IMG/VR virus record: IMGVR_UViG_3300042453_003401
Coordinates: 1-52,621 of that record
Direction: 5' to 3' (one strand)
From: a virus
Length of the DNA: 52,621 bases
This document shows positions 30,813-36,060 of the stretch, one piece after another. The position numbers and the translations under genes were made by a program. The notes below the pieces were generated by a model. The model saw nothing but the letters and a program-made list of their open reading frames with translations, ran no database searches and was not told the DNA's origin. Each line of letters starts with the position of its first letter. Positions within the stretch are counted from its first letter, which is position 1.

Positions 30813-31220
30813 CTATTCTCCTTCCATTTTACTGGGAAGCTGCCAAGTGATACGGAGTTCCCCTCCCAGAGCCTTAATGTCGTCGCTAGCGTCTGGAGGT
30901 GCTTCACGCACGATCATCACAGAAGGGATAATGGCATCGCGCAAGGGCGTAACAGTGGCTTCAGGAAATAGCTCTCGAGCCTTGTCGGCAAGCTGATTCG
31001 CCTTGGTTTCCCTTTCGTCTTTTTCCCATTGCTTCACCAAAGCAGCAGCTTGCTTGTCCACTGCTTCCATTACCACTTTTGTTTTCCACTCTGTCCACTC
31101 GGGCCTGCAATAGGCCATGAGCATCTTGAACCAAGGATTTCCCGCTAGCGAAGGCCACTGTCCTGCGGCCCAAAGGCCAGCTTCATAGCACAGTGCATTT
31201 AGCCAAGACTGCCGGTTCAT
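30813..31220 (-). CDS. Hypothetical protein downstream of endolysin
   Basis: A 135-residue protein, ATG 31220 with AGAAGG just upstream. Trp-rich N-terminus (RQSWLNALCYEAGLWAAGQW; PEWTEWKTKVVMEAVDKQAA), charged coiled-coil middle and a beta C-terminus (LGGELRITWQLPSKMEGE). No family recognised. It is last in the leftward lysis transcription unit, 46 bases after the endolysin gene. Confidence 0.6.
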   Translation of the reverse strand: MNRQSWLNALCYEAGLWAAGQWPSLAGNPWFKMLMAYCRPEWTEWKTKVVMEAVDKQAAALVKQWEKDERETKANQLADKARELFPEATVTPLRDAIIPSVMIVREAPPDASDDIKALGGELRITWQLPSKMEGE

Positions 31221-31266: not shown

Positions 31267-32208
31267 TTAACCTTCCTGGAAAACTGACAGAAATACTGTG
31301 CCCGCCTTGGTTAGCGGCAATACTTTATCGCGAAGATCAATGTTAAAGATTCTGCAACAACCATGAGTTGGCACTAGCGGCTGCTTGGGTGCCCACGCGC
31401 CCGGCCAGCCATTTGCGGACCCACCCCCGTGGAGGCAAATTCCAGAGCGTCCGTACTTGGCCTCTTGATTTTCTAACTCAACCATGTCAAAGGTGTACCA
31501 GCCATACGCCATTAGAGTGCGGTCGTAAGCAGGGTTGCTCCCGACTCGTTCATAGTCTCTGTAAATAGCTCCCAATTTGTATAGGCCGGGAGGACAGTCA
31601 GAATTTTTAATCTTCCATTCAAAGTCGCTGTATTGTCCACGAGCCAAGCAGGGAATCTCCCATAGTAGTTTTCCTTCAAAAGAAAAAGCCTTCATTGTCT
31701 CCACTAGATCATTGACGATCAAATGGGAGTCGCCTCTCTTGAAGCCAAAATCTTGCGGGCGTTTCTTTGGACCGATCATGGTAGAAGTGGTGGATTCGGG
31801 AGCGTATTGTTTCATGAGCCGCGAAAGTTTCGCGGGATATTCTGGGTCAGTGGCGTATTTCTGCTCCTTAAGCATGCGAGCAGCGGCGTAACGATTAGGA
31901 GCATTGTTAATGCCCTTAAACTGCCTATAGTCTTTATACCAGCGAGTGATGAGATATTCGATGCAGGCAGATAAGCTTGGAAAATCAATGAAGCCCGCCT
32001 TGATTGTCACCCACTTCCCATCGTAAAACTCTTGTGTAGATACCACACTACCCCCACCTTTTAGACCGAGGTAGTTGTGCTTGCCAGAAGTATGTTGGCC
32101 AAAGCCGCTCTCTAAACAGCACTGAGCCGCCACAAGCTCCGGAAATCGCGCCCCGTGCTTGCGGGCAAGCTGAAAACACTCATCCCAGAACTCTTTGCTT
32201 GTGGCCAC
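31267..32208 (-). CDS. Endolysin: glucosaminidase-like domain + YkuD (L,D-transpeptidase-fold) domain
   Basis: A 313-residue protein from GTG 32208. Residues 1 to about 140 resemble FlgJ-type glucosaminidase (GH73): AAQCCLESGFGQHTSGKHNY with Glu33 as likely catalytic acid, then NYLGLKGGG and AARMLKEQKYATDPEYPAKL. From about 150 on comes a YkuD-like domain: HLIVNDLVETMKAFSFEGKL, PPGLYKLGAI, ICLHGGG (His260) and PTHGCCRI, the [ST]HGC motif with Cys284. Such domains cut or make L,D cross-links in peptidoglycan. Joining both activities would let one enzyme cut glycan and peptide. It follows the holin-like gene by 5 bases. Confidence 0.8.
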   Translation of the reverse strand: MATSKEFWDECFQLARKHGARFPELVAAQCCLESGFGQHTSGKHNYLGLKGGGSVVSTQEFYDGKWVTIKAGFIDFPSLSACIEYLITRWYKDYRQFKGINNAPNRYAAARMLKEQKYATDPEYPAKLSRLMKQYAPESTTSTMIGPKKRPQDFGFKRGDSHLIVNDLVETMKAFSFEGKLLWEIPCLARGQYSDFEWKIKNSDCPPGLYKLGAIYRDYERVGSNPAYDRTLMAYGWYTFDMVELENQEAKYGRSGICLHGGGSANGWPGAWAPKQPLVPTHGCCRIFNIDLRDKVLPLTKAGTVFLSVFQEG

Positions 32209-32213
32209 TGGCT

Positions 32214-32357
32214 TCAGCCCTTCACGCGGAAGATAGCCTTAAGACCAGTGAGGAGCAATTGAATGAGGTTGTTCTCCTTCCAAGGAGTGTGTTGAATCAC
32301 CTGATCGAGAGCAGCAATGACAATGCCGCCAACAACGAACCACTCGACGCCAGTCAT
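32214..32357 (-). CDS. Small holin-like membrane protein
   Basis: A 47-residue protein: MTGVEWFVVGGIVIAALDQV then IQHTPWKENNLIQLLLTGLK and AIFRVKG. One hydrophobic segment (residues 6-21), an amphipathic middle and a second short hydrophobic stretch before a basic end. I recall similar short proteins next to cyanophage endolysins. Position 5 bases before the endolysin start supports a holin or pinholin role; that is inference. Confidence 0.65.
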   Translation of the reverse strand: MTGVEWFVVGGIVIAALDQVIQHTPWKENNLIQLLLTGLKAIFRVKG

Positions 32358-32382: not shown

Positions 32383-32592
32383 CTAGCGTCCAATTTCAAG
32401 CGAACGCACCCTTGTTTCCAAGCCCTTAATATTTTCTGTGAGTTGATCAAGCTTCTCTGCAATGTTCTCCACTTGCGTGGTGATCTTCACTTGCTGCTGG
32501 CCAATGCTCATCATCATGCCACCAGTGGCGAGCAGCATGCCAGCAGTAATGCTCACGGCCAAATGCGCTAGTTGTTCCTGCCAGGCATTCAT
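32383..32592 (-). CDS. XhlA-like membrane/coiled-coil protein of the lysis cassette
   Basis: A 69-residue protein from ATG 32592 (the in-frame TTG upstream is less likely). A hydrophobic segment HLAVSITAGMLLATGGMMMS is followed by a heptad coiled coil (VENIAEKLDQLTENIKGLET). XhlA-type hemolysin/holin partners have a coiled coil and a single membrane segment, though usually in the reverse order. It is first in the lysis unit and has its own TAGAAT-type promoter 20 bases upstream. A spanin-like role is an alternative. Confidence 0.55.
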   Translation of the reverse strand: MNAWQEQLAHLAVSITAGMLLATGGMMMSIGQQQVKITTQVENIAEKLDQLTENIKGLETRVRSLEIGR

Positions 32593-32677: not shown

Positions 32678-33163
32678 ATGGGGAAAGGAAATGAGGCCGA
32701 CTTTCTTCTTTATTCCCTTTGTGAATTACGCCCTGGAGAAGCTAAGCGTCGTTTCCGAAAAAGCATTTTTGAAGACTATTTCCTGCGAGGCCCATTTGGT
32801 CACTGTGCCTGTGCCTATTGCGGCAAGTGGACGGAAAATCTGACCATCGACCACATTGTTCCCAAGAGCAAAGGCGGTCCGCATTTTTCAAAATGGAACA
32901 GCGCTCCTGCTTGCCTGTCCTGCAATGCGAGCAAGGGGAGCCTGCCAGTGTTTGAATGGTGGCGACCACAGAAGTTTTGGACGCCAGAGCGGGAAGAAAA
33001 ACTTCTTGCGTGGGTGCATGCTCATAGCTTCATCAGTGCTCATACAGACATTGGAGAGTGGGAGCAATGGATGGAGCAAACGCAGCGAATCGTGCCAGTG
33101 CATGATGAAAAGCAAAAGGCGGCTTTGTGGCCGCCTTTGTCGCAATTAAAGCTTGCTAGTTAA
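32678..33163 (+). CDS. HNH endonuclease
   Basis: A 161-residue protein. CAYCGKWTENLTIDHIVPKS, then SKWNSAPACLSCNASKG, is a canonical HNH nuclease with two CxxC zinc knuckles, the DH pair and an N in the second helix. The N-terminus (ADFLLYSLCELRPGEAKRRF) and a Trp-rich C-terminus (FEWWRPQKFWTPEREEKLLA) match phage HNH proteins often seen between gene blocks. It stands alone on the + strand between two leftward units, the typical position of a free-standing homing endonuclease. A packaging role is less likely as no terminase is adjacent. Confidence 0.85.
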   Translation: MGKGNEADFLLYSLCELRPGEAKRRFRKSIFEDYFLRGPFGHCACAYCGKWTENLTIDHIVPKSKGGPHFSKWNSAPACLSCNASKGSLPVFEWWRPQKFWTPEREEKLLAWVHAHSFISAHTDIGEWEQWMEQTQRIVPVHDEKQKAALWPPLSQLKLAS

Positions 33164-33515
33164 TTGGCTCGAACAGTTCTGAAGGACCTTGTCTGACGGA
33201 GGGCATGGGACAAAAGCCATCTGTGCATTCTTCTTCCAAGCCCAAACTTTCTCGCATGATGGCTAGCACTTTCGTCGCCGTGTCATTGGCTTTCACTTCT
33301 TCTGTCTCGACCATAGCAATTAAGCGATCCAGGTACCACTGAGCCTTTTTGAGGTCTTGAGCGCCATTTTTCATTTCATAGCGCCAAATGTATTTCAGAA
33401 TGTTGCCCTTGAGCATGCCCTTAAATGCTTCTCCGCTCATGGAAGCCTCGATAGCTTCGATGGCTTCGATGGCGCCGCTGGCATAGTGCGACGGACTGTT
33501 CACGGGATCGTGCAT
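33156..33515 (-). CDS. DUF3310 protein
   Basis: A 119-residue protein from ATG 33515, 2 bases after the thyX stop. VNSPSHYASGAIEAIEAIEA, then GNILKYIWRYEMKNGAQDLK and KAQWYLDRLI, is the clear DUF3310 pattern (N.P.HY..G.iE.i......F..GN.iKYi.Ry..Kng.eDL.KA..Yl). Some members are annotated as nucleotide kinases, but the fold is too small for a standard kinase and the role is unproven. A small triplication (IEAIEAIEAS) sits in the N-terminal helix. Pairing with thyX suggests nucleotide metabolism. Confidence 0.8.
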   Translation of the reverse strand: MHDPVNSPSHYASGAIEAIEAIEASMSGEAFKGMLKGNILKYIWRYEMKNGAQDLKKAQWYLDRLIAMVETEEVKANDTATKVLAIMRESLGLEEECTDGFCPMPSVRQGPSELFEPIN

Positions 33516-33517
33516 GA

Positions 33518-34231
33518 TCAAAATTGGTAATTGTTGGTTTCAAAAGCCGCAAAGGCTTCAGGAGCGATGGGGCGAGCAAGCTCTAACAAAGCCTCGGCAT
33601 AGGCCACGATTTCATACTGAGCGCCCTTGCCAATGCGAAGGCTGATGAAATGCAGCAAAGCCTGCAGCGAGCATGTCCAGACAAAACTGGTGTACATGGC
33701 AGGAGGCAGAATAGCTCGAGCCTGCTCCTTGCTCACTCCCATTGCAATCAGCTCCTCATAGGCCGCCTTGGCCGTCGCTACGCCTTGCACATAGAAGAGC
33801 CTGGCCCTTGACTGTGCGCTGGTGCTAACGGGGCCTGCAGACGCTTGACGGTTGCTCTCCGATTGTCCTAGGAACTGGTCAGGCATGTAAAACTGAGCAT
33901 CTTCCGCTGAGCAATAGCGGAAGCTCTTTTCGTTCCAGCCAAGTTGATCGTCAACGTAAGTAGAAGCGACAGTGTGCTTCCACCATTGACGAGCAACAAA
34001 CAAAGGCGCCTTCACCTGCCACTTGAACACCACGCCACGAAATGGGCTTGTGTGGTGCTCACGAGCAAGATAGTTGAGAAGCTTTTCGTCCTTCTCATCC
34101 CATTGCTCTTTTCTGTTGTCAAAGCTTTGACGAGCATCGTTTACCACGGACAAACTATTGCCCATGGAGTCGATGAGAGCCACGAGGCTCTTGCCGTCTT
34201 TAAGGGGATCAATGGAAGGGAAATTAGTCAT
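33518..34231 (-). CDS. thyX: FAD-dependent thymidylate synthase
   Basis: A 237-residue ThyX, which makes dTMP from dUMP using folate, FAD and NADPH. Seen: HHTSPFRGVVFKWQVKAPLF, ARQWWKHTVAS, then GWNEKSFRYCSAE, and a C-terminus with ARAILPPAMYTSFVWTCSLQ and LLHFISLRIGKGAQYEIVAYAEALL. The usual RHRxxSxNExSxRY is changed: R81-QWW-K85-H86-T87 replaces RHR, and an insert (STYVDDQLG) precedes NEKSFRY. Similar KHT variants occur in other phage ThyX proteins as far as I recall. It overlaps the upstream small membrane gene by 8 bases. Role: boosts thymidine supply for phage DNA. Confidence 0.88.
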   Translation of the reverse strand: MTNFPSIDPLKDGKSLVALIDSMGNSLSVVNDARQSFDNRKEQWDEKDEKLLNYLAREHHTSPFRGVVFKWQVKAPLFVARQWWKHTVASTYVDDQLGWNEKSFRYCSAEDAQFYMPDQFLGQSESNRQASAGPVSTSAQSRARLFYVQGVATAKAAYEELIAMGVSKEQARAILPPAMYTSFVWTCSLQALLHFISLRIGKGAQYEIVAYAEALLELARPIAPEAFAAFETNNYQF

Positions 34232-34433
34232 TGGAGGTGCGATCAGTACCAGTCATCAGGCGGAAGGTAAAAGCAAGGAGCCACCACTGCCAAAAGCCGA
34301 GCGCAAAGGTCGGGAAAAGAATGGCGGCGCAAAGGCTGAGCATCCATGCACGCAGGCAAGTGATCAAAAATGCGCTGATGCTTAAGCCAACAAGGCGTCC
34401 AAGCTTTGTGGCCGTGTCGTCAGAGACAGTCAT
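34224..34433 (-). CDS. Small membrane protein upstream of thyX
   Basis: A 69-residue protein. Two hydrophobic segments: LVGLSISAFLITCLRAWMLS and LCAAILFPTFALGFWQWWLLAFTF, followed by RLMTGTDRTSND. Small proteins with such a segment pair and a FWQ/W turn are frequent in phages but unnamed. ATG 34433 overlaps the stop of the upstream gene (ATGA), and its end overlaps thyX, so three genes are coupled. Confidence 0.6.
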   Translation of the reverse strand: MTVSDDTATKLGRLVGLSISAFLITCLRAWMLSLCAAILFPTFALGFWQWWLLAFTFRLMTGTDRTSND

Positions 34434-34648
34434 TGAGGAACGAAGGCGATGGGGCGGATGCGTTGAATTGCCACTGTACTAGAGACGAGAGTATCCTTTC
34501 GCTCCCAGGCGACCACTGCCGCTTTTCTTCCATTGCTTTTAACAAAACCTTGGAAGATGCCGAAGAGGCTTGTCGGCACCATACCAGCCCCTGTGAGGGT
34601 GACCAGTACCACTCGCTCTCCAATGGTCCATGCATAATTCTTGGGCAA
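34430..34648 (-). CDS. Small KOW/SH3-like protein, start uncertain
   Basis: The frame ends at 34430 in an ATGA overlap with the next gene, good evidence for a real gene. The region PKNYAWTIGERVVLVTLTGA ... GIFQGFVKSNGRKAAVVAWE ... STVAIQRIRPI looks like a small beta-barrel (G.rV.lv....G..vGfv...gR.avV.w). The frame stays open to 34804, but that would run into the divergent gene. I therefore favour TTG 34648 (72 residues), though no Shine-Dalgarno supports it. The role is unknown. Confidence 0.5.
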   Translation of the reverse strand: MPKNYAWTIGERVVLVTLTGAGMVPTSLFGIFQGFVKSNGRKAAVVAWERKDTLVSSTVAIQRIRPIAFVPQ

Positions 34649-34802
34649 CTGCGGCAGTCTATGTTTTCTGCTCAGTGGGCGCAAGACTTTCTGGCAGTCC
34701 GAACCTTCTTTTTCGGCATTCCTACCATCATCCACTGCTTTGACAAAACTCTTGCGACCATCATGCTGCTTTAGCCTAAAGACAACAAAGGAGGGCGAAT
34801 GC

Positions 34803-35162
34803 ATGAGCTTTTGTATTCCAGTGGAGATGGTCTACAATGGTCAGATCAAGCGGGGCATTATGGGACCGTTCGAGCATTCAGCAGAGCGTCAGTTTGCTTT
34901 GACAGTAAACAAACGAGCCATTGACGAATGCTCAAGCTTGGATCAGTTGAAGCCAGTAGCAAAGAATTTGCTTGAAGGCTGGTCCACTATGAACACAGCC
35001 CTGCAGAGCATGATGCTGGAAAACATTCAGCTTCGTCAGGCGCTAGCCAAGAAAGAGCTTGATTTACGGGCGGCAGATGAGCTTATGAGCGAGGCCGCTG
35101 AGATTGTGCAACAATATGCGAAGCAATCAAAGAAAGCCAGGCCGAGTCTTTGGCCATGGTAG
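34803..35162 (+). CDS. Hypothetical helical protein
   Basis: A 119-residue protein from ATG 34803 with AAGGAGG (34788-34794 region) 8 bases upstream. It reads CIPVEMVYNGQIKRGIMGPF, then long helices (LLEGWSTMNTALQSMMLENI; LRQALAKKELDLRAADELMS). No family recognised. It is the only rightward gene in a leftward block, and its last 80 bases overlap the convergent nuclease gene. Confidence 0.6.
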   Translation: MSFCIPVEMVYNGQIKRGIMGPFEHSAERQFALTVNKRAIDECSSLDQLKPVAKNLLEGWSTMNTALQSMMLENIQLRQALAKKELDLRAADELMSEAAEIVQQYAKQSKKARPSLWPW

Positions 35163-35463
35163 AAGTTAGGAGGAAGATTGTCCAGCCGCTTGTATACGCG
35201 AGATTATATTTTTTGCAATCGCGCTCATAACCAGAGCCAGTGACGTGGCGGCCACGACTGTAAACGCCACCTTGGATTTCGACGCCAGTGCGAGAGAGGG
35301 GGTGAGCAAAGTCAAGGCGATACCGTTTCGATCGTTTGCTGCGAGAATAGCGCTCTTGAAAATCTTTTTCCCACGCATCAATATCAGAAAATTCTCTTTC
35401 AAGAATTAACTTTGGGAAATGCGCTTGCCAAAGGCTGAGAAACTGATCTTCAAGAGCGCTCAA
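35083..35463 (-). CDS. PD-(D/E)XK nuclease-like protein (DUF559/VSR-like)
   Basis: A 126-residue protein. YRLDFAHPLSRTGVEIQGGV and YSRGRHVTGSGYERDCKKYN, then GWTIFLLTSTMAKDSAWLSL, form the pattern D-FAHP...vEIqGG....GRH..g.gyerD..K.N......W.v..lt known from small phage nucleases related to DUF559/VSR. Probable active residues are the Asp in LDFAHP and E-x-Q in EIQGG. It may act in recombination or junction trimming. Its 3' end overlaps the convergent gene by 80 bases. Confidence 0.7.
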   Translation of the reverse strand: MSALEDQFLSLWQAHFPKLILEREFSDIDAWEKDFQERYSRSKRSKRYRLDFAHPLSRTGVEIQGGVYSRGRHVTGSGYERDCKKYNLAYTSGWTIFLLTSTMAKDSAWLSLIASHIVAQSQRPRS

Positions 35464-35466
35464 TGC

Positions 35467-36060
35467 CTACACGGCAGCTAGCTGTACTTTAGCCCCTTGG
35501 TTCTGGTAGTGGCCGGAATAAGCCTCTTCCACAGCACCATCGAGCTGGTAAAGCATCACCTGTACAATTCCTTCGTTCGCATAGATGCGAGCGGGAAATG
35601 CCGTGGGATTGGCAATGTGCATGGTGAGATGGCCGGCCCAGCCAGGTTCAACGGGCGTCACGTTGATGATGATGCCACAGCGAGCGTAGGTGGACTTTCC
35701 ATCGCATAGCCCCATGATGGACGGAGGCATAGAAATCAATTCCAGGCTTACGCCAAGGCCAAAGCTATGGGGAGGCAGGACGAACCAACTTCCATGGGGA
35801 CCATGATTCAGACAAGCTTCATAGCCAGTGATTGGCATGAGCTTAGGGTCAAGCGTTGGCTTGCTTTTCCCTTTGTAGTCTTTCCCATCGAAAATCAAAA
35901 ACTGGTCAGGCGACAGGCGAATGTCATAACCTGCCTGGGAAAGGCCATACGAGATGGCCTTGGTTCCACAGTCAAGCGATCGTCGCTTTTCGCCTACGAA
36001 AGGAAGGAAGATGTCCAGCTCTGCGAGCTTGGCAATTTCCTTGTCGTAGAGCAGGCTCAT
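35467..36060 (-). CDS. dCTP deaminase / dUTPase superfamily protein
   Basis: A 197-residue trimeric dUTPase-fold protein. Residues GYDIRLS (44-50), LPPHSFGLGVSLELISMPPS, MGLCDGKSTYARCGIIINVT and VEPGWAGHLTMHIANP, ARIYANEGIVQVMLYQLDG follow the dCTP deaminase order. Ser123 and Arg127 of GKSTYAR correspond to the deaminase pair. The position of the catalytic Glu of E. coli Dcd (LEFYN) is His148 here (TMHIAN). So it may not deaminate in the usual way and could be a dUTPase or a binding protein. It lies in the nucleotide-metabolism block with thyX. Confidence 0.75.
   Translation of the reverse strand: MSLLYDKEIAKLAELDIFLPFVGEKRRSLDCGTKAISYGLSQAGYDIRLSPDQFLIFDGKDYKGKSKPTLDPKLMPITGYEACLNHGPHGSWFVLPPHSFGLGVSLELISMPPSIMGLCDGKSTYARCGIIINVTPVEPGWAGHLTMHIANPTAFPARIYANEGIVQVMLYQLDGAVEEAYSGHYQNQGAKVQLAAV

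Follow-up and report, generated by a model that had tools for sequence, protein, structure and literature searches.

A probable bicatalytic cyanophage endolysin pairing a GH73-like with a YkuD-fold domain

Described relatives and domain architecture

Most YkuD enzymes known so far build walls. The bond that they attack is the L,D one linking meso-DAP3 to D-Ala4, and ordinary 4-3 links contain it too, in the donor stem. Known members can work as L,D-carboxypeptidases or endopeptidases as well (PMC12729407), and the YkuD enzyme Tlde1a acts as a wall-damaging effector (PMC9638812). Phage lytic proteins bearing YkuD domains have already been catalogued, namely ten entries in PhaLP (PMC8310338) and a gut phage endolysin in which YkuD is joined to a GH25 glycosidase (PMC13284279); these involve other partner and host groups than the protein described here and are uncharacterised in both sources. 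The closest described system is gp063 of the Synechococcus siphovirus S-CBS4 (YP_005098362.1), which belongs to phrog_3513, a family already listed as endolysin in PHROGs. It contains the same two domains behind the same upstream genes (gp064/gp065) as our locus and differs in sequence only, while its annotation as lysozyme/N-acetylmuramidase does not mention the YkuD half. In Synechococcus phage B23, gp319 carries a YkuD domain of the same subfamily (about 71% identity) but differs by its C-terminal GH19-like domain, and in S-CRM01 (g113/g112, about 57% identity) a GH24 lysozyme precedes the YkuD part, the two lying in adjacent frames. Cyanophage PSS2 gp098 has the same type of GH73 domain and also a second catalytic-type domain, there a C39/C70-like peptidase.

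The gene studied here lies in a viral DNA stretch of 52,621 nucleotides (IMG/VR record IMGVR_UViG_3300042453_003401), hereafter the window. Its features are as follows.

31267..32208, minus strand: predicted bicatalytic endolysin gene, 313 aa, GTG start; phrog_3513 endolysin (8.5e-59), 81.7% identical to the S-CBS4 endolysin
31804..32172, minus strand: GH73/FlgJ-like glucosaminidase domain, residues 13-135; PF01832 (3.4e-17) and structure matches
32110..32112, minus strand: Glu33, predicted GH73 catalytic acid; the same in 45/45 full-length proteins
31270..31755, minus strand: YkuD L,D-transpeptidase-fold domain, residues 152-313; structure matches, PF03734 above cut-off in relatives
31429..31431, minus strand: His260, predicted catalytic base; invariant, 131/131
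31357..31359, minus strand: Cys284, predicted nucleophile; invariant, 131/131
31351..31353, minus strand: Arg286 (Cys+2); invariant, 131/131, the Arg type of L,D-transpeptidases according to PMC8263019

The identity to S-CBS4 gp063 extends over 99% of the window protein, and GH73-YkuD proteins are also encoded by dozens of non-identical IMG/VR contigs. A private fusion or an assembly artefact was thus ruled out by the isolate and the many independent contigs, and the pairing, which the original prediction did not recognise as a standard endolysin architecture, turns out not to be unique, being present in PHROGs and in an annotated phage. A megablast search of window positions 20001-45000 against phage records returned short pieces only, mostly from tail-fibre genes.

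Pfam assigned residues 13-135 to Glucosaminidase (PF01832; E 3.4e-17, 63.7 bits against a cut-off of 30.2), whereas the YkuD family (PF03734) matched residues 204-292 at E 1e-3 and 20.1 bits, under the cut-off of 23.4. This latter score is weak yet not noise, because the homologous domains of S-CBS4, B23 and S-CRM01 exceed the cut-off with 28, 35 and 38 bits, respectively. An AlphaFold2 model built from 82 aligned sequences reached a mean pLDDT of 85 for the full protein and about 90 or more across most of the YkuD part; with a pTM of 0.56, the two domains are reliable, while their relative placement is not. Residues 1-138 of the model match the GH73 structures of Auto, FlgJ, AtlA and the Thermotoga maritima glucosaminidase (Z 11-13; 3fi7 13.1, 5dn4 11.8, 7qfu 11.5, 4qdn 11.4). 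These glucosaminidases (FlgJ, Auto, AtlA, TM0633) share the N-terminal fold and the catalytic Glu with our protein, and their solved catalytic domains come without a YkuD partner. For residues 152-313, B. subtilis YkuD (4a1i) aligned with Z 13.4 and an rmsd of 2.6 over 114 residues, followed by Csd6 (4xzz, Z 13.4), Pgp2 (6xj7, Z 13.3) and Tlde1a (7uo3, Z 11.6); Bd1075 and mycobacterial Ldts match as well, and all YkuD-fold matches fall at Z of about 10-13. Fold and catalytic Cys/His are common to the window protein and to B. subtilis YkuD, Csd6, Pgp2, Bd1075, LdtMt1/2 and Tlde1a, which are only 12-21% identical to it and have no GH73 partner. Querying PDB sequences with a profile of the YkuD part returned no match, so that the evidence for this fold comes from Pfam and structure comparison. 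The above-cut-off homologues, the model and the conservation described below rule out a chance YkuD match.

Both halves of the architecture proposed in the original prediction thus stand: the GH73-like N-terminus, with Glu33 in CLESGFG and the NYLGLKG motif, agrees with the Pfam assignment and the fold, and the C-terminal half, with His260 in LHGGG and Cys284 in PTHGCCRI, was predicted to adopt the YkuD fold and not another one. The two Pfam families that had been named were both recovered, PF01832 above its cut-off and PF03734 below it here and above it in relatives.

The conservation of the YkuD domain was assessed in 131 unique domains, the window protein included. Cys284, His260, Gly283, Arg286 and Asn289 do not vary, and residue 281 is Thr with a single Ser. 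The published motif, (S/T)XGC-hydrophobic-R (PMC12729407) with an upstream catalytic His, is represented by THGCCR and His260. The His of HGC is variable: residue 282 is His in 87 sequences, the window protein among them, and otherwise Leu (39), Tyr (3) or Met (2), with Leu in all 25 host-genome sequences. Since the published motif leaves this position free, such variants still fall within the YkuD definition. The distance from His260 to Thr281 is 20 residues, longer than the usually quoted X14-17. HX(14-17)[S/T]HGC is one published form of the motif, the published forms differing among themselves in spacing (PMC9638812, PMC12729407), and the Pfam family does not require it. The 20-residue gap, with an invariant GW..AW stretch, is a difference from the YkuD enzymes compared above. 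Median pairwise dN/dS is 0.073 in the GH73 half and 0.077 in the YkuD half. Strong purifying selection thus acts on each, indicating that both are maintained.

A lysis-type cassette

Three small genes adjoin the endolysin gene.

32214..32357, minus strand: 47-aa single-TM protein, candidate holin or antiholin, directly upstream of the endolysin; homologue of S-CBS4 gp064
32383..32592, minus strand: 69-aa protein with TM and coiled-coil-like parts, putative second membrane protein of the lysis cassette; homologue of S-CBS4 gp065
30813..31220, minus strand: small protein after the endolysin, phrog_6464/22672; similar proteins lie behind YkuD elsewhere

The endolysin starts with its GTG codon 5 bases behind the stop codon of the small gene before it. 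In 60/61 non-redundant loci, the endolysin is preceded by homologues of both membrane genes, whose distance to it hardly varies. We read this arrangement as the layout of a holin/endolysin cassette, in which hydrophobicity and position are what points to a holin role; a family search gave no convincing match for the 47-aa protein. The lysis-type position, the purifying selection on both halves and the repeated pairing of YkuD with a glycan-cutting domain all speak for the endolysin identity assumed at the outset. Besides, proteins similar to the 30813-31220 product come after YkuD in another locus (L271) and, via a C-terminal ALGGE motif, in S-CRM01 (g111). An HNH endonuclease (plus strand), a ThyX-type thymidylate synthase and a dCTP deaminase (both minus strand) occupy window positions 32678-36060, in an order resembling that of S-CBS4.

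Proposed action of the YkuD half

We consider the window protein to be, more probably than not, a cytoplasmically made bicatalytic cyanophage endolysin, whose GH73 half cuts glycan and whose YkuD half attacks an L,D bond, so that cross-links are severed or blocked. An N-terminal signal sequence is not apparent in the 313-aa translation, and the small membrane proteins encoded just upstream would let the endolysin reach the wall. There, the GH73 half would hydrolyse the glycan as a predicted beta-N-acetylglucosaminidase via Glu33, while Cys284 and His260 of the YkuD half would act on the L,D bond that joins meso-DAP3 to D-Ala4, leaving an acyl-enzyme on meso-DAP3; alternatively, the meso-DAP-meso-DAP bond of 3-3 links may be the target. 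The acyl group might then be handed to water or a small amine, which would open 4-3 or 3-3 links because the attacked L,D bond is part of the 4-3 donor stem. With its peptide cross-links severed or blocked, the sacculus would be opened in both dimensions by one protein. We infer the activity and the bond that it targets, that hydrolysis prevails over net cross-linking, and that the upstream genes act as holins.

Arg286 counts against the favoured explanation, as an Arg of this type marks transpeptidases and not the known dedicated carboxypeptidases (PMC8263019). Also against it are the relatives in which the YkuD gene has no lysin within the stretch examined, and a literature search that returned no report of L,D cross-links in picocyanobacteria. 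Csd6 and Pgp2 are close in fold but do not have the Arg that the window family keeps (PMC8263019), and membership among such dedicated L,D-carboxypeptidases was not adopted. DpaA, which frees lipoprotein, likewise has no Arg two residues past the catalytic Cys (PMC8263019). As Arg286 separates the family from both, room is left for an exchange-type mechanism, and the idea of an attack on outer-layer proteins deserves little weight.

Conceivable, though rather unlikely, is a YkuD half that works like Tlde1 as a genuine transpeptidase or exchange enzyme: free D-amino acids or glycine would take the place of D-Ala4 or of cross-link partners, and the wall would be weakened through the consumption of donor stems and not through simple hydrolysis. 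The retained Arg286 is as in transpeptidases, and Tlde1a is a structural match (Z 11.6). Moreover, its H129A variant, in which the His of HGC is replaced, retains D-amino acid exchange and loses most cross-linking (PMC9638812), and 44/131 sequences have Leu, Tyr or Met in place of the corresponding His282. Lysis, however, leaves little time for exchange, and the window protein still has His282. Since binding domains at this position are common in endolysins and the His of HGC varies, a catalytically silent domain serving only in wall binding might also be envisaged; this appears improbable, given that the five invariant residues are kept in all 131 domains, including stand-alone copies without a lysin to target. 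Even less credible is a DpaA-like amidase that frees outer-membrane proteins from peptidoglycan, as cyanobacteria are not known to anchor any outer-membrane protein covalently. DpaA shares the fold superfamily and was among the Foldseek matches of the model (8ikr, E 6.4e-3), but at Cys+2 Ala or Asn prevails among DpaA-like proteins (PMC8263019), whereas Arg is found there in 131/131 domains of the window family. The original suggestion that the enzyme detaches outer-layer proteins was therefore not borne out. Finally, a YkuD half that strengthens the wall with 3-3 links for reasons of timing or superinfection, not aiding lysis, would suit the transpeptidase-type Arg and the precedent of Bdellovibrio and its prey cited in PMC11390936, but it is very improbable, as most relatives have a wall-cutting domain in the same polypeptide and the cassette is of lysis type.

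A lysin family with the YkuD fold as its second catalytic unit, as in the bicatalytic endolysin that we favour, would represent a natural L,D-bond-attacking lysin. Such a lysin could help to find out if L,D cross-links occur in the walls of cyanobacteria; our literature search found no direct report of them for cyanobacterial, including picocyanobacterial, peptidoglycan. It would also test the proposal that the cross-link type shields bacteria from some endolysins, L,D cross-links blunting lytic-transglycosylase endolysins but not lysozymes (PMC11390936).

Domain pairings in phages and hosts

In one scan, relatives of the YkuD domain were encoded by 461 IMG/VR stretches. The 225 GH73-YkuD loci among our records are a redundant set in which the same contigs recur; the non-redundant counts are 61 loci and 131 sequences. 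GH73-YkuD is the architecture of the great majority of the sorted loci (Pfam checks on some), YkuD-GH19 occurs in B23 and eight other loci, and GH24-YkuD is found in Synechococcus/Cyanobium genomes. In large cyanophages the YkuD gene overlaps a GH24 gene behind it, and in S-CRM01 the GH24-YkuD endolysin (L003:2216-3525) is apparently split into g113 and g112 by a one-base frameshift (one missing base). A small N-terminal module precedes YkuD in Synechococcus WH 5701 and its kin. YkuD also stands alone; a check of one such locus showed a GH24 lysozyme 0.7 kb downstream, and for some relatives no lysin was found within the stretch examined. The start of one stand-alone YkuD gene is overlapped by a gene for a coil-plus-TM protein of XhlA-like layout (L176:2738-3004). 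A quick tree requires 11 changes of partner label, and three for GH73-YkuD taken by itself; as its deep branches are weakly supported, it leaves the count of fusion events uncertain.

We found no description in the literature searched of one YkuD subfamily recurrently paired with three glycan-cutting families in cyanophages, nor of the YkuD subfamily of cyanophage lysins in host chromosomes, nor any reported activity for it. We tentatively speculate that picocyanobacterial phages and their hosts might share a YkuD subfamily specialised in wall breaking, traded as a second blade among GH73, GH24 and GH19 lysins, several lineages of which dropped the HGC His that Tlde1a cross-linking needs; such a subfamily could owe its existence to L,D or heavily cross-linked peptides in host walls, which glycan cutting by itself would open too slowly. 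In the Synechococcus/Cyanobium genomes sampled, we counted 1-4 YkuD proteins per genome, endolysin-like ones included; canonical members are present in most, which makes L,D chemistry in the host walls plausible.

In 12 Synechococcus/Cyanobium genomes (L285-L294, L308 and L309), the GH24-YkuD gene sits amid shared flanking genes and is possibly a domesticated endolysin. Its product always carries TLGC and has no apparent signal peptide, and a SulP-type transporter gene lies nearby in L288. A second host group (L295-L307 except L298), including Synechococcus WH 5701, carries the fusion of the small N-terminal module with YkuD without a glycosidase, the module being common to the start of S-CRM01 g113.
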